A stretch of 64,000 nt of DNA, taken from positions 22,866 through 86,865 of the IMG/VR virus record IMGVR_UViG_3300020420_001038; one strand, given 5' to 3'. Each line of letters opens with the position of its first letter. Within the stretch, counting starts at the first letter, position 1. The DNA is from a virus. The translations under genes and the position numbers were made by a program. Below the pieces are notes generated by a model. It did no database searches. It was not told the origin of the DNA and worked only from the letters and a program-made list of their open reading frames with translations. Below are positions 45,655 through 54,009 of this stretch, piece by piece.

Positions 45655-46284
45655 TTAGGTGTATTTTACAGTGAGACCAAACTTTGATAAAAAATCTTCA
45701 GTATCCATGTGTGTCAGGTTATCGTTCCAGTCAAGGTCTTTGGGTCTAAACCAACCGTTCGGCGTTATTCTGTAGAATTGTGTGTCTTTGAAATCTTGTA
45801 GGCAACGTTTTGTCTGATTCATCCAGTTTCCATAGAAAGTTGCCTCGTCCTTGCTACGTTTATAGTTCCTTGTGTCTTTGAAAACATTGTTGAATTTGTG
45901 CCTGTTTGCCTTTTGTGCATCTGTGTGTCCTTGATAATCAAATCCTAATATATAAATGTCCGTGAATTTACGTTCACAAGCCATTCTTAATGCAGTTGGA
46001 CCGCTTGACCAACCCAAACTTGGTTGGAACCATTGCACATGGTTTTTGATTGCTTCATGTTTTTCGTATTGTGCATTGTAATTTGACCATACTTGGTGTG
46101 TCTTGATATACTCTGATTCTGCTATTTCAAGCACCATCTTGGGATCAACAGCAATTAAAAAGTCGGGTTGTTCAGATCTATACACCCCATTACAGGCAAA
46201 AACGGTACCATGTTTTTTGAGATCTTCGATTTTTATGCCCTTTCGGGATTCTCCGTTACCGAGTACGAATGCTGTTGTTGACAT
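45655..46284 (-). CDS. Rossmann-like protein with VLGNGES motif (MptE-like?)
   Basis: 209 residues beginning TTAFVLGNGESRKGI, then GTVFACNGVYR and PDFLIAVDPKMV, and later SSGPTALRMACERKFTDIYILGFDYQG. This layout recalls the DUF115/MptE-like family, some of whose members handle pterin or sugar phosphates, but that link is from memory of motif style. It is unusual to find an enzyme-like gene between gp20 and gp21, so it may modify the capsid or be a moron gene. Start overlaps the upstream stop by one base. Confidence 0.7.
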   Translation of the reverse strand: MSTTAFVLGNGESRKGIKIEDLKKHGTVFACNGVYRSEQPDFLIAVDPKMVLEIAESEYIKTHQVWSNYNAQYEKHEAIKNHVQWFQPSLGWSSGPTALRMACERKFTDIYILGFDYQGHTDAQKANRHKFNNVFKDTRNYKRSKDEATFYGNWMNQTKRCLQDFKDTQFYRITPNGWFRPKDLDWNDNLTHMDTEDFLSKFGLTVKYT

Positions 46285-46526
46285 TATACTTCTAAGTTAT
46301 CGTCTTGGACCGGGGTTCCGTACATCTTTTGAACAAATACGGCTTCTTCTTTCTGCTGTGCTTCGTGTTGTTCCGAAGCAAGTCTCATAGAATTGATATC
46401 TTTGAGTGTTAATCTAGTTTTTCGTGTGTCATCCTTATCCAATATCGAAATATCCTGCTCGGCGTCATAGGATTTGTCCTGTTCAAAGCCGTTTTCGCTA
46501 TATTGAAAGAATTCCATTAGTTTCAT
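46284..46526 (-). CDS. Small conserved protein downstream of the portal gene
   Basis: 80 residues from MKLMEFFQYSENGFEQD (ATG 46526). The frame is open further upstream, but that part overlaps gp20 out of frame and has no protein-like character. The conserved-looking core DDTRKTRLTLKDINSMRLAS and the LVQKMYG-like FVQKMYG end resemble short proteins after gp20 in marine T4-like phages. Possible minor prohead component (inference from position). Confidence 0.78.
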   Translation of the reverse strand: MKLMEFFQYSENGFEQDKSYDAEQDISILDKDDTRKTRLTLKDINSMRLASEQHEAQQKEEAVFVQKMYGTPVQDDNLEV

Positions 46527-46539
46527 AATCGTATTTAAC

Positions 46540-48276
46540 CTAAACCTGGCCACCTCCACCGGTTCCTCCAGGTGTTGTTCCACCACCTCCTGGTGTCTGA
46601 CCAGGCTGTCCTGGCTGTGGTGTTTCCGGATTTGGTGCCTCTGGGTCTGCTGTTGGCTCAGTAAACTGATCCAAATCACTTGTGATGCCTGCCTGTGTAA
46701 CTCCGCCTGAACGTAATTGTCCGGATTTTGTTTTCTTCGCTTGTGGAATATTGTTTTCTTCTGCCCAAAGGTCGGCATTTCTTGCCATTTCTTCCTCAGT
46801 AAGTCCGAGATATCTTTTTAAAGCGAATCTCTTACTCATGTAAGGAAGTTCTGCTACCTGTGAGAATGATTGTATTCTTGTTTGGTCCATTTCTGTCTGT
46901 CTGTACTGTGCAAAGTTTTGTGGTGGATTTAGTTTTAGTTCAAACATACCACTATCGATGTTGTAACCTTTAGATTTGATCCATAATTTGAACTCTTCGT
47001 CGAATGTTGGGTTCAACATACTTTGTAATCTTGCACAATATTTGTTGAATCTTAATTCTTGAATGTAAGCAGTACCTACCCTACCATCATTATACTGTTG
47101 TTGCGAATCATCTGGTCCTGTTGGCAAGTATGAACTTGGTATTCTCAAACCTCTGAACAGTTTGTTTGTAAAGAATTTAAGGTCATCAATCTCACCCAGG
47201 TTGGTTCCACCCGGTAGTGTGTCAACTTTAGACCCTCTTCCTTCTGCTGTTTGCGGAAAGAAGTAATCCTCATTAATACTCATTGGATTATATGTAGCAT
47301 CAATATAGTTGACACCACCTGATGTGCTTGGAATTCTTCTTTGATTAATTTCGTTTTTGACTCTCTCAACGAACTGCATAGCCAAGTGTGTTGGCATATT
47401 ACCCACGTCGATGTAAAATACTCTTCTTTCAGGTGCTCTCTGTACCCTGTAGATGATAATTGCGTCTTCTAATAATTCTTTTTGTTTGTAAACTTTGAAA
47501 ACTTGTTCTAATACCGACTGTCCAAACGGAAATAAGTTGTCTAAACCATCTGACATACTCATATGCACCACGTGTTCTGCATTGATGTTGTATGCATTCA
47601 TTGTTTTGTAAAATCTACCGCCTGCATTTCCTTGTGCGAAGCCAGACATGTTGGTTCCCGAACCACCACTTGCATAACTTTGACCATAAGCCGCGGTTCC
47701 GCCGCCTGTTGTTCCACCTCCACCGTATGTTTGGTTGGGTGTTATCTGTGTTGCACTCAATCTTTGTAGGTTTGGATTAATATCTCTTATCACATACTGT
47801 TCAGGCTTCTTGCCTTCTGATTCATTGACAACAATTCTATCAACTTTTGCATTGTCAACATACAACCACTTGTATGTTTCAGGATCTCTCACGAAGAAAC
47901 AATCTCCGTATTTCAATGCATTCCTGAATATTCTAAAAATTCTTTTTGTTAGTTTATTAGACTTGGTCCATTGTTGCAGTGCCTTCTTTAAAAGTTTGAC
48001 TTCGTGCTCTGTGGTTTCGTCTTTGAATAAAATATCAAATGGTGTTTCGTTCTCTGTGTTTAATTGTGTTGAAAATTCTGCTAGTATATCAAGTGCCGCA
48101 TTTATTTCAGAGTCCGAATCCATTTGGTCATATTGAAAATATCTTTGTATCCTGTTTGGGTGTCCTGTGTAAACATCCGGAAGATACGAACTGTAATTTC
48201 TTTTTGCAAAGTTAGGCACTTTTTCGCCGGATATCGGAGAAAGATTAGCGTCTTTAAAATATTTTTTCCAAGCCAT
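46540..48276 (-). CDS. 20: Portal protein gp20
   Basis: 578 residues with the gp20 core: HPNRIQRYFQYDQMDSDSEI near residue 40, FFVRDPETYKWLYV, IIYRVQRAPERRVFYIDVGN, GGVNYIDATYNPMSINEDYF, FFPQTAEGRGS and GRVGTAYIQELRFNKY. The C-terminus is Gly/Pro/Thr-rich. It forms the dodecameric DNA gate and prohead initiator. It lies 6 bases from the preceding tape-measure-like gene. Confidence 0.96.
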   Translation of the reverse strand: MAWKKYFKDANLSPISGEKVPNFAKRNYSSYLPDVYTGHPNRIQRYFQYDQMDSDSEINAALDILAEFSTQLNTENETPFDILFKDETTEHEVKLLKKALQQWTKSNKLTKRIFRIFRNALKYGDCFFVRDPETYKWLYVDNAKVDRIVVNESEGKKPEQYVIRDINPNLQRLSATQITPNQTYGGGGTTGGGTAAYGQSYASGGSGTNMSGFAQGNAGGRFYKTMNAYNINAEHVVHMSMSDGLDNLFPFGQSVLEQVFKVYKQKELLEDAIIIYRVQRAPERRVFYIDVGNMPTHLAMQFVERVKNEINQRRIPSTSGGVNYIDATYNPMSINEDYFFPQTAEGRGSKVDTLPGGTNLGEIDDLKFFTNKLFRGLRIPSSYLPTGPDDSQQQYNDGRVGTAYIQELRFNKYCARLQSMLNPTFDEEFKLWIKSKGYNIDSGMFELKLNPPQNFAQYRQTEMDQTRIQSFSQVAELPYMSKRFALKRYLGLTEEEMARNADLWAEENNIPQAKKTKSGQLRSGGVTQAGITSDLDQFTEPTADPEAPNPETPQPGQPGQTPGGGGTTPGGTGGGGQV

Positions 48277-48282
48277 ACTTTA

Positions 48283-50352
48283 TTATACTAGACTTCCGTC
48301 CATTTTTGCAAGATTAATATTTGTTTTTTTGGTATTTTGTTCAGTCTTTGCACCTATCATAACAAGCATATTTAAGTGATCTGCAAGTTTTTCGTTCGTT
48401 GCAACCATACGGTTAATACCTTCTATTAAGTTTGGCTGTGTTGTGGTAGCCATTGTTTCTCTGGCCGCCTCGCTGACAGGCATTCCTGTTGCAGTCATGT
48501 CTTTTGACAGCATTGCCAATGCACTGGCAAAATTTGCTTTAGGAATAACTGCTTCCTCACCATGCAACATTGCCAATTTGCCACTGCCAAAATTTTGGAA
48601 TCCGTCTGTGCCTTGATTGAAATCAGGAATTATACTTTTTAAGTAATTGTAACCTGCAATGACTCCCTCTTTGGAGTTTGAAAAGAATCCTTTGCCGTCT
48701 TCGCCCTTGGTTGCAAATTCTTTCACCGCCGATCCGGCCGCTTTTGCATCTTCCGTAACGTTTGTGAAAATGCCTTTGTCATCTGCACCCGGAAGTATGT
48801 ACTCCAAGGTGGATTTTGCTCCCTTGGCCACACTATCATATATTGTTCTGAAACCCTCCCAGTTCAAAATGTGTACACCGATCTCTGCCATCTTGTCTAT
48901 TGTCTTTTGTATTGGATTGCTTTCCCCTGTGAAGTAAGTAGTCAGGTCGTCCAACATTGTTCCAATTTTTGTCGGCACTGTTGTGATAAAGGCCTTGGCA
49001 ATTGCAAGTCCGGCTTTTTCTGCCTGCACTTCAAGTTTTTGTAATTTGTCTGTGGCATTTACTAGTGCTGTGGTGTTTGCATCTCTGGCACTCATCTCTT
49101 TGTCTAATGTTTCAGACTGACCACCTGCAAGTTTGGCCAGTGCAGATAGTCCTTCTCCAAAAGATCCTCCGGCAAATGCGGCATCACCAAAACCTTCGCC
49201 TGTCTTGATTGCTTCATTGGCCGAGGCACGTAACGCATTCATTAAACTTTCAACATCACCATTACCTCTACTGAAAGCAAGTATGGCATCATTGATTGCT
49301 CCGCCACTCATTGTAGTTAGATTTCTTGATGTTTCTGTGATGGGTGCACCTAAGGCAATAAGTTCTTGTGCCAGTTGTCCGAGGTTGCCGTCTACCGCGC
49401 CAAGACTAGCCACCATGTTGTTTAATCGATTTGCTTCTTCAGGAGCCATGCCTGCCAACTGTGCCTGGAACGCACCATTAACCGACAATGCTCTGTTCTG
49501 TTGATCTAATTCTTGAACACTTGCACCTGTAAGTTTTGAAAGTTTTACTAAATTTTTTGTGTAGTCAACAGTGATGGAAGCAAGATCCATGCTACGCATT
49601 TTGTCTGCGTTACCTCTTGCTCTTTCTAATTCAAGAACAGTGGCTCCAAATTCTGCTGTCTCTTCTAAATTCAAACCAAATTGTGCAAGTTCGTTGATTG
49701 TTCTATCTCTCAGTTCTCTTGTGAACCTTGTCAACACTGGCATCGATTGATCAACTGTTCCAAACAGTCCCGCAAGTCCTTGTGAATTTTGTCCAACCAG
49801 ATCAACAAATTGCATCAATGGCATGTTTGCATCCAGTGCCGCTTCTCTCAATTTGATAACCGATCCTCCAAATGTGGCTCCATTCTGTGCCAATGTTTTG
49901 AATATGCTTGAGTTGAAGTCAACAAATTTTCCTAGTTTTTCTAAACCAAAACCTAAACCTTGTGTAGCCTCACCAAACGATTGGAAGTATTTGTCTCCTT
50001 CAATCGCTGTTTTTGTATTTTGTGCCAATCCTGCAACAGTTTTCTTTGCTTCATTGCCGATCAAAGTTCCCATCTTTTTGACAGCGGCTCCAAAACTATT
50101 CACGGATTTGGTAGTGACATTGAATTCCTCGCCCATTTTTCGTATTTGGGAGATATTCTTTCTGATGGCCTGTCGCTTTTTCTCGTCGGCCTCTGTGGAA
50201 CCCTTAATGGCTTGTAATTCTTTTTCTTGCGCCTGTATGGTTCTCTTTAAAATTGCTTCTTTTTGTTTTTCCGTGTTGGCAAGTTTTAACATCGATCTTG
50301 TTGTTGACAATATCGTTGAATTGAACTTTTCTAGATTCTCTATCTCAGCCAT
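48283..50352 (-). CDS. Tape-measure-like virion protein
   Basis: 689 residues, mostly alpha-helical. A charged coiled coil (residues 20-90) precedes an Ala/Leu/Gly-rich helical body with phage tape-measure features (FGAAVKKMGTLIG, LREAALDANMPLMQFVD) and a C-terminal GKLAMLHGEEAVIPK, the classic end motif of tape-measure proteins. A ruler of this length would set a tail near 100 nm (0.15 nm per residue), as in T4, where gp29 (590 residues) does the job. It diverges from the tail chaperone gene. An alternative is an extra internal virion protein. Confidence 0.65.
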   Translation of the reverse strand: MAEIENLEKFNSTILSTTRSMLKLANTEKQKEAILKRTIQAQEKELQAIKGSTEADEKKRQAIRKNISQIRKMGEEFNVTTKSVNSFGAAVKKMGTLIGNEAKKTVAGLAQNTKTAIEGDKYFQSFGEATQGLGFGLEKLGKFVDFNSSIFKTLAQNGATFGGSVIKLREAALDANMPLMQFVDLVGQNSQGLAGLFGTVDQSMPVLTRFTRELRDRTINELAQFGLNLEETAEFGATVLELERARGNADKMRSMDLASITVDYTKNLVKLSKLTGASVQELDQQNRALSVNGAFQAQLAGMAPEEANRLNNMVASLGAVDGNLGQLAQELIALGAPITETSRNLTTMSGGAINDAILAFSRGNGDVESLMNALRASANEAIKTGEGFGDAAFAGGSFGEGLSALAKLAGGQSETLDKEMSARDANTTALVNATDKLQKLEVQAEKAGLAIAKAFITTVPTKIGTMLDDLTTYFTGESNPIQKTIDKMAEIGVHILNWEGFRTIYDSVAKGAKSTLEYILPGADDKGIFTNVTEDAKAAGSAVKEFATKGEDGKGFFSNSKEGVIAGYNYLKSIIPDFNQGTDGFQNFGSGKLAMLHGEEAVIPKANFASALAMLSKDMTATGMPVSEAARETMATTTQPNLIEGINRMVATNEKLADHLNMLVMIGAKTEQNTKKTNINLAKMDGSLV

Positions 50353-50382: not shown

Positions 50383-50422
50383 TATAAATATTGACATACA
50401 TACGCAATTATCGTATATTTAT
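50383..50422. promoter_or_regulatory. Divergent promoter block between tape-measure-like gene and gp26
   Basis: Plus strand: late element TATAAATA (50383-50390) and a sigma70 promoter TTGACA (50391-50396), 17-bp spacer, TATATT (50414-50419), 5 bases, ATG 50425. Minus strand: late element TATAAATA (50415-50422) facing the gene at 50352. Early-type and late elements overlap within 40 bp. Confidence 0.7.
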
Positions 50423-50424
50423 AG

Positions 50425-51291
50425 ATGCAAAAAATGACAGAAAATACTAACCCTTTACAAAAGTATTATAGACAGCCACAGATCTATGTGAAACTGCCAT
50501 CGGGCGGTAAATGGTATGGCCCTGAGGTTTTCACCCCAACTGAAAATGGTGAGATACCAATCTTGCCAATGACAGCAAAAGACGAACTGGCTTTCAAAAC
50601 TCCAGATGCATTGATATCAGGACAAGCGACAGTGGATGTGATAAAATCTTGTGTACCAAATCTTAAAGATCCATGGCAAATGGTGAATTTTGACACTGAC
50701 ACTATATTATTAGCAATCAGGATAGCATCGTATGGTGAGACCATGAACATCGACTTCACTGTACCTGTTACTAATGAGCAGGATTCCACTACATTAAATT
50801 TGCCTGCCATGTTGGAAGATCTGGGCAGAGCAAAAATATCAGATTCTTGCAAAACAAAAGCAGGATTTGTTATTAAACTTGCACCTTTAAGATACAATCA
50901 ACTAACAAAAATAATCCTTGCACAGTATGAACAGCAAAGAATTTATGCATCGGCGGTGGCCTCAAACGTGAATGAAGTTACCAGAAGCAAAACTTTCTCC
51001 GAAAGTTTTAAAAAATTAAATGAACTAAATTTTGATATGCTTATCAACAGTGTGGCAAGTATTACCACTCCAGATAATGTCGAAGTCAATGACCAAAAAC
51101 AAATTGTGGAATTCTTAAGCAACGCACCTTCTGACGTGGTGGATGATATACAAACAGAATTGGCAAAAGTGAGAAGCCAGGCACAGACTCCTCCGTTGAA
51201 AATAAAGGCCACGGAAGAGCAGATCAAGAAAGGTGTTCCGGCAACATTTGAGGTACCCGTAACTTTCGACAACTCAAATTTTTTCGGGTAA
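50425..51291 (+). CDS. 26: gp26-like baseplate/tail assembly chaperone
   Basis: 288 residues of the T4_baseplate family (gp26/gp51): QIYVKLPSGGKWYGPEVFTP, ILPMTAKDELAFKTPDALIS and SCVPNLKDPWQMVNFDTDTI at the start, then a helical C-terminal half. The family acts in baseplate hub or tail assembly and is related in idea to the lambda G chaperone. ATG 50425 follows a consensus sigma70 promoter by 5 bases; ATG 50434 is an alternative. The gene ends in a slippery run and probably makes a longer -1 frameshift product. Confidence 0.85.
   Translation: MQKMTENTNPLQKYYRQPQIYVKLPSGGKWYGPEVFTPTENGEIPILPMTAKDELAFKTPDALISGQATVDVIKSCVPNLKDPWQMVNFDTDTILLAIRIASYGETMNIDFTVPVTNEQDSTTLNLPAMLEDLGRAKISDSCKTKAGFVIKLAPLRYNQLTKIILAQYEQQRIYASAVASNVNEVTRSKTFSESFKKLNELNFDMLINSVASITTPDNVEVNDQKQIVEFLSNAPSDVVDDIQTELAKVRSQAQTPPLKIKATEEQIKKGVPATFEVPVTFDNSNFFG
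51276..51288 (+). promoter_or_regulatory. Putative -1 ribosomal frameshift site
   Basis: Zero frame reads TCA AAT TTT TTC GGG TAA. Two X-XXY-YYZ heptamers overlap here: A-AAT-TTT (51276-51282) and T-TTT-TTC (51279-51285). They lie 2-3 codons before the stop, and the -1 frame is open from well upstream to 51515. Confidence 0.7.
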
Positions 51292-51293
51292 GG

Positions 51294-51515
51294 TTGCTAA
51301 CACAGTCGGAATCTGAAATTGTAAAATTTCTAAAAGATTTCGAGTCTCAACAAAAAAATCTAAAATTGGAACTTATGAAACTTTGTTGGTTTATGCGTGG
51401 CGGCATAACTTGGCAGGAGGCACTCAATTTATCGCCGGATGAGCGCCAAATAGTGTCACAATTGGTAAAAGAAAACTTGGAAACTACCAAAAAAACAGGT
51501 CAGCCATTCTTCTAA
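51294..51515 (+). CDS. -1 frame extension of the gp26-like chaperone (or short separate protein)
   Basis: 73 residues if read from TTG 51294, but the frame is continuous with the slippery site at 51279-51285. The conserved-looking body LKLELMKLCWFMRGGITWQE and ENLETTKKTGQPFF resembles short proteins next to gp26 in other T4-like phages. A TTG start with AAGG directly touching it is a poor initiation site. A frameshift would give a ~363-residue gp26 fusion, as in lambda G/GT, where the extension binds the tape measure. Confidence 0.75.
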   Translation: MLTQSESEIVKFLKDFESQQKNLKLELMKLCWFMRGGITWQEALNLSPDERQIVSQLVKENLETTKKTGQPFF

Positions 51516-53271: not shown

Positions 53272-53549
53272 ACATCGCTACTCTCGTCGGGCGGTTGTGC
53301 TGTACCCGTTTGCTCATTCATTACAACGCGAGCCTACTAGATCCTTGTATAATAGTATCTAATAAACTTGAGGTTTATCTTTTTCTAAGAGCCTCATCAT
53401 TTTTGCTGTGTGCATCAAAGGATTCACCTGTCGCTTGTTAGCCGCATTTCCTTGCTCACTGGTTGCGATGCTATGTTTGCCTGGGGGAAATTGTGTGTGC
53501 CTATCGCATATGTTTATATGAGTTTTATTTTAAGGTCAATCTTTTTGGC

Positions 53550-53557
53550 TTTAAATA
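53550..53557 (+). promoter_or_regulatory. Late-type motif 5 nt from the GIY-YIG gene start
   Basis: TTTAAATA then TTGTA then ATG 53563, with no Shine-Dalgarno. Same geometry as the other predicted leaderless late genes. Confidence 0.4.
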
Positions 53558-53562
53558 TTGTA

Positions 53563-54009
53563 ATGCATTGGCAGTACCGAGAAAAAGACATCACAGAATT
53601 ACCAGATGAGGTTGTGGGATTTGTTTACCAAATAACAAATACAACCAACGGTAGGATGTACATAGGAAAAAAACTTGCTAGATTCAAAAGGTCAAGGAAG
53701 CCTTTGAAAGGCAGGGTCAACAAAAGAAGATACACGGTGGCCAGCGATTGGCAGGATTACTATGGATCAAGTGATGCCCTCAATGAGGACATACAAAAAC
53801 TTGGTAAAGACAAATTCAAAAGAGAAATATTATTCTACTGCAAATCCAAAGCGGAACTTTCATACGTTGAGGCCAGAGAACAGTTTGCACGAAAAGTTTT
53901 GGAAACAGACGATTACTACAACGGCCATATCAGGGTTCGTATACACGGGTCTGGGATAATGAGAGAAAAATCTACAAAAGGTATATTAAAAGAAAAAGCC
54001 TCCACTTAA
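53563..54009 (+). CDS. GIY-YIG-family endonuclease-like protein
   Basis: 148 residues from ATG 53563. The motif GFVYQITNTTNGRMYIGKK contains the GIY-YIG pair (here GFVYQI and MYIG) followed by basic residues. DWQDYYGSSDALNED and KREILFYCKSKAEL then YVEAREQF carry the expected helices and Glu. Related proteins in marine T4-like phages are conserved and not obviously mobile. It borders the gene-free region and GC-rich island, so a homing or transfer role is possible but unproven. Followed by a bidirectional terminator. Confidence 0.82.
   Translation: MHWQYREKDITELPDEVVGFVYQITNTTNGRMYIGKKLARFKRSRKPLKGRVNKRRYTVASDWQDYYGSSDALNEDIQKLGKDKFKREILFYCKSKAELSYVEAREQFARKVLETDDYYNGHIRVRIHGSGIMREKSTKGILKEKAST

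Follow-up and report, generated by a model that had tools for sequence, protein, structure and literature searches.

A putative -1 frameshifted tail-assembly chaperone of the gp26/gp51 type and its conserved slippery site in T4-related phages

The gp26-like gene, its junction and its neighbours

The window, i.e., the whole stretch of 64,000 nt of phage DNA analysed here, carries at 50425–51291 (+) a gene for a gp26-like (T4_baseplate) chaperone, the 288-residue zero-frame product of which (TAC-N) was assigned by PF12322, phrog_150 and an AlphaFold2 model. In the zero frame, this gene ends AAC TCA AAT TTT TTC GGG TAA, where the initial annotation had noticed two overlapping canonical slippery heptamers before the stop; both of them, A_AAT_TTT (51276–51282, +) and T_TTT_TTC (51279–51285, +), are indeed in the zero-frame register, and the stop codon TAA (51289–51291, +) lies two codons beyond the slip. 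The -1 frame was likewise confirmed to be open across the heptamers: it begins after a TGA stop at 51249, is free of stops from 51252 to 51515 and provides 76 sense codons after the slip (51285–51515, +), which are open and homologous in relatives and would encode the C-terminal domain of a fused product, TAC-NC. A slip at either heptamer would give the identical 363-residue fusion, ...DNSNFF-RVRLLTQ.... The only nearby start codon in the -1 frame is, as had been described, TTG at 51294, which is touched by AAGG with no spacing (51290–51296, +); given the zero spacing and the lack of conservation of this start, we judged it non-functional.

Heptamers of the X_XXY_YYZ type are found in frame about once per 180 codons in the window (106 in 19,038 ORF codons), and the chance of finding one within the 13-codon overlap of the two frames is hence about 7%. 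A heptamer in a single genome is therefore weak evidence alone, and comparative evidence was needed.

Upstream of the chaperone gene, a 689-residue protein is encoded divergently at 48283–50352 (-). Its description as a tape-measure-like neighbour holds with respect to position, namely adjacent and divergent, but its identity was not confirmed by sequence; the protein matched no Pfam or PHROG family, and no match to phrog_1283, the tape-measure family of T4 gp29, was found in the window contig. The position is homologous to that of a large structural protein in jumbo phages, the RaK2 counterpart of which carries a tape-measure-like annotation, and the neighbour is thus a probable tape measure protein. 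In lambda-type systems, the chaperone gene is expected between those for the tail tube and the tape measure. The gene order in KVP40 is tail tube, gp26, gp51C and a 656-residue protein, and in Cr30 an annotated tape measure gene is located two genes downstream.

A box resembling the T4 late promoter, TATAAATA, is present at 50383–50390 (+), 35 nt upstream of the ATG of the chaperone gene, and a second match to the motif at 50416–50423 (-) faces the divergent tape-measure-like gene. The forward box was found within 110 nt upstream of the gene in 16 of the 21 representatives in the window clade and in 30 of all 75 representatives, with none in the gene bodies, and the minus-strand box in 24 of the 75. 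In the window, the two boxes are opposed between the divergent genes with their transcription crossing.

Two further observations were made around this locus. A gene for a SegE-type GIY-YIG endonuclease (53410–54009, +; PF19835, E = 3.7e-36) is present near the chaperone and gp46/47 genes, and the relatives have at this position endonuclease VII (121Q, RaK2 and GAP32) or a RusA-like/Holliday junction resolvase (PA5oct and Phosso); a resolvase swap or a homing insertion is possible. Also, an ORF at 46284–46778 (-) overlaps in another frame the 3' end of the portal gene (46540–48276), has no Pfam match and probably represents a small gene, prohead-core-like, the true start of which is further downstream.

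Conservation of the slippery site and of the -1 frame among relatives

Relatives were collected by three protein searches of IMG/VR and one search of GenBank phages, resulting in 150 distinct junctions that form 75 clusters at a protein identity of 70% and 28 clusters at 60%. A canonical heptamer in the zero frame is kept in 149 of the 150, and the conservation of the slip site and of a continuous -1 frame, for which an alignment of related gp26 loci had been proposed, was thus borne out. Both heptamers are present in 118 relatives, A_AAT_TTT alone in 14 (132 relatives with this site altogether) and the T6 type alone in 17, including the jumbo phages in GenBank (135 with this type). While the search patterns included the Phe-Phe residues in one search, those in another were placed far upstream of the junction, and the site was still found in 68 of the 69 distinct loci obtained with junction-independent patterns. 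Furthermore, Asn-Phe-Phe is encoded exactly as AAT TTT TTC in 48 of the 50 cluster representatives having those residues, against about 13% expected from the usage of Asn and Phe codons in the same genes, where the background of the two specific heptamers is about 0.0006 per codon.

These numbers bear on the reading of the junction as chance or artefact, namely two unrelated frames that happen to adjoin at a slippery run, or one gene broken by an indel into a pseudogene. AT-rich genes often contain in-frame heptamers, as the frequency above illustrates, but the heptamer recurs in 149 of 150 distinct sequences, which come from finished genomes as well as independent assemblies, and both frames are under coding constraint; the doubt about chance is therefore removed, also with the junction-independent patterns, and this reading, with a practically negligible probability, is already refuted by the comparative data. 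The only relative with no canonical heptamer (L127) has TCT TTT TCT with the -1 frame and the homologous domain intact, and either a slip in the P site only or a local sequence error is possible there.

None of the 150 relatives has a closed -1 frame; it encodes a homologous C-terminal domain in every case and typically extends 70–75 codons beyond the zero-frame stop, and we found no case in which the two frames are separated by stops. The +1 frame is usually closed within about 8 codons. The zero-frame stop is at the same spacing as in the window in 90 of 149 relatives and mostly 2–3 codons later in the others. The -1 frame is under purifying selection; in the window clade, the divergence at its codon positions 1, 2 and 3 is 0.278, 0.138 and 0.553, respectively. 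Such protein-coding constraint is already present in codons 3–8 after the slip (0.302, 0.092 and 0.467), which mostly precede any candidate start codon.

The constraint before any start is relevant to the possibility that no fusion is made and that the downstream frame is instead a small gene of its own, i.e., a stand-alone gp51-like gene whose translation begins by reinitiation or translational coupling. It is indeed listed as such in GenBank for most relatives, and an ATG is located at or near the zero-frame stop in KVP40, S-PM2 and 121Q, as is the TTG at 51294 in the window. A start is nonetheless not conserved: ATG, GTG and TTG are all absent from the first 15 post-slip codons in 40 of the 74 cluster representatives, an ATG with a Shine-Dalgarno-like motif was found in only three of the 74, and 10 of the 21 members of the window clade have no start within 20 codons. 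A clear ribosome-binding site with a conserved start, which would have spoken against the frameshift, is hence not a feature of these loci, and a separate gene also leaves unexplained both the fixed codons AAT TTT TTC and the constraint ahead of the start. We thus consider a separate gene in place of the fusion to be very unlikely, while additional separate initiation is conceivable in the lineages of 121Q, KVP40 and S-PM2.

The extension is systematically mis-annotated in several of these jumbo phages: it is missing from the annotation of RaK2 (NC_019526.1, 78433–78645) and PA5oct (NC_071039.1) and shortened to a later start in GAP32 and CBB. The conserved junction corrects the annotation in many genomes, where the extension appears as an orphan hypothetical protein, is given in a shortened form or, as in RaK2, is missed.

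As for stimulatory signals, the mean folding energy of the 60 nt following the slip is more favourable, at -12.7 against about -8 kcal/mol. In the window clade, no conserved RNA structure was found downstream; the window itself has a folding z of -3.0, which is not common to its clade and is hence not claimed as a signal. A Shine-Dalgarno-like upstream stimulator was found in none of the 74 representatives. In several clades, however, a hairpin starts about 3–6 nt after the heptamer; the hairpin of one clade (L149–L178) has three pairs with compensatory changes, and a clade related to PA5oct (L103–L113) has an 11-bp hairpin about 5 nt after A_AAT_TTT, within the first 50 nt post-slip. The stimulators appear to be lineage-specific, and since hairpins are present in some clades and neither a structure nor a Shine-Dalgarno-like stimulator in the window clade, the frameshift efficiency may differ between clades.

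The hairpins are typical of ribosomal -1 signals and also bear on slippage of RNA polymerase, which could produce mixed mRNAs and thereby the fusion at a junction that is a run of T's. The run is, however, only T5–T6, its A-rich part varies by clade, and the feature that is kept is the X_XXY_YYZ register in the zero frame; transcriptional slippage is accordingly an extremely improbable source of the fusion.

Protein families and the relation to gp26 and gp51 of T4

The N part matched PF12322 with E = 1.1e-14 and 55.1 bits (cut-off, 24.5) and phrog_150 with E = 2.6e-18. Both gp26 and gp51 of T4 match PF12322, and gp51 reaches the end of the longer phrog_150 profile, which spans gp51 to its C-terminus. 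In S-PM2, P-SSM2, HTVC008M, Cr30 and phiM12, phrog_150 is matched by two overlapping frames, one for its N part and one for its C part; the columns from about 206–230 to 276–282 match the -1 frame. The -1 domain of the window clade was aligned by hhalign to a C-terminal profile of gp51 and cyanophages (E = 2.8e-5, probability 74%, 33 columns), which, together with the intermediates and the position, argues with moderate strength that the C domain in the window carries a gp51-type C-terminal tail. When single T4 sequences were used in hhalign, the C domain of the window clade was not detected with gp51, and the window profile gave no significant match to gp26 or gp51; the link to gp26/gp51 hence rests on the Pfam and PHROG models and the intermediates.

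Structure models, for which alignments were built from IMG/VR loci only, were obtained for the N part (pLDDT 86.8, pTM 0.80) and the C domain (all helical, pLDDT 87.7) with AlphaFold2. Among viral folds, the N model was closest to baseplate hub assembly proteins of the T4-like type (E = 5e-23). A fold search of the PDB gave no match with E below 0.001 for the N model, including solved tail-assembly chaperones (HK97 gp13, 2OB9), and no significant match for the C domain; in BFVD, the annotated chaperone of phage Molivia was the one weak match of the N model (E = 9e-3). With no PDB match, membership in the structural family of HK97 gp13 was not assigned, and HK97 gp13 is regarded only as a functional analogue.

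The same junction was found in 121Q, RaK2, PA5oct, GAP32, CBB, XbC2, Atu_ph07, Phosso and Vibrio 2.275, and the same arrangement in S-PM2, P-SSM2, the pelagiphage HTVC008M, Cr30, phiM12 and KVP40. The junction heptamer is T_TTT_TTC or T_TTT_TTT in S-PM2, P-SSM2, HTVC008M, Cr30 and phiM12, and KVP40 shares this junction; a similarity of the small ORF downstream to the C-terminus of gp51 had been remarked on by its annotators (KVP40 GenBank record). The initial annotation had placed the arrangement in a T4-like phage, which stands, but the arrangement is not peculiar to one such phage, being shared by jumbo phages, cyanophages and KVP40.

The eight jumbo-phage records searched, all of which contain the junction, have a single PF12322 gene apiece, versus two (26 and 51) in T4. 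Gene 26 of T4 ends GAG TTC TTT GAG TTA CTA TAA, in which the Phe-Phe pair is kept with no heptamer, and gp51 is longer than gp26 at exactly the end that is encoded by the -1 frame elsewhere. KVP40 keeps the frameshift junction, whereas T4 and Aeromonas phage 44RR2.8t encode full-length gp51. From these sequence comparisons, the frameshifted arrangement appears to be common in the wider T4 superfamily, which includes jumbo, marine, cyano-, rhizobial and Vibrio phages, and T4 to be exceptional. We consider it likely that a frameshifted gp26/gp51 gene is ancestral across the superfamily and that the two-gene state of T4 is a late split by duplication in Straboviridae.

Frameshifting model and comparison with known chaperone systems

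Taken together, the locus very probably encodes, as judged from its sequence, a -1 frameshifted tail-assembly chaperone like lambda G/GT in the forms TAC-N and TAC-NC. The anatomy, the protein family and the neighbourhood are all consistent with the earlier proposal of a lambda-type system in a T4-like phage. Most ribosomes would translate TAC-N (288 residues) and terminate at 51289, while a fraction would slip back by one base on A_AAT_TTT/T_TTT_TTC, bypass the stop and add the helical domain of 76 residues to give TAC-NC (363 residues). Slips of this kind occur by re-pairing of tRNA-Phe on UUU/UUC. The slippage itself, how often it takes place and the partners bound are predictions. On the model of lambda, the tape measure protein would be coated by the N part, tail-tube subunits would be brought in by the less abundant C-extended form, and the slip efficiency would set a fixed ratio of TAC-N to TAC-NC. 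In T4, the same two forms would come from separate genes, 26 for the short one and 51 for the long one.

Tail chaperones made by frameshifting are textbook knowledge, and the present locus is a well-supported, mostly unannotated case of a known mechanism. Frameshifted chaperones in some T4-like phages have probably been reported already, according to papers citing Vladimirov et al. 2022: PRFect (PMC10885494) cites it for some T4-like phages carrying separate short and fused genes, and the Adele paper (PMC12846349) for slip sites of the polyT type in the TAC-N genes of T4-like phages. Among the papers covered by our literature search, none was found to report it for Rak2-type jumbo phages or the marine lineage of the window.

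As in lambda gpG/gpGT, two frames overlap, the slip site is close to the end of the upstream one, a short chaperone and one extended at the C-terminus would be produced, and a probable tape measure gene lies alongside, although the neighbour is divergently transcribed here. The slip site of lambda is G_GGA_AAG, and its chaperones belong to an unrelated protein family; chaperones of the lambda type are expected to be absent from virions. In lambda, gpG and gpGT both bind the tape measure, the latter through its G part, and the T part of gpGT binds the tube protein (PMC5009743). The chaperone of phage Adele (Vandenendeviridae/Andersonviridae) likewise has a -1 slip where TAC-N ends, on the T-rich sequence GTTTTT, and a downstream frame that is unannotated and open in all relatives (PMC12846349), but it comes from other phage families and is likened here by arrangement.

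The lambda system has been described as widely conserved in long-tailed phages, "except T4" (Atkins et al. 2016, PMC5009743), whereas the relatives of T4 examined here do carry the frameshift junction. The exception of T4 is thus a narrow one, as the slip site in the gp26 gene is retained in relatives as diverse as jumbo phages, cyanophages and KVP40. The N part here is of the same family as gp26 and gp51, and the extension aligns with the tail of gp51 that is absent from gp26; gp51 itself is explained by the frameshifted gp26 arrangement. The short and long forms are two genes without a slippery site in T4, whereas here there is one PF12322 gene with a frameshift junction.
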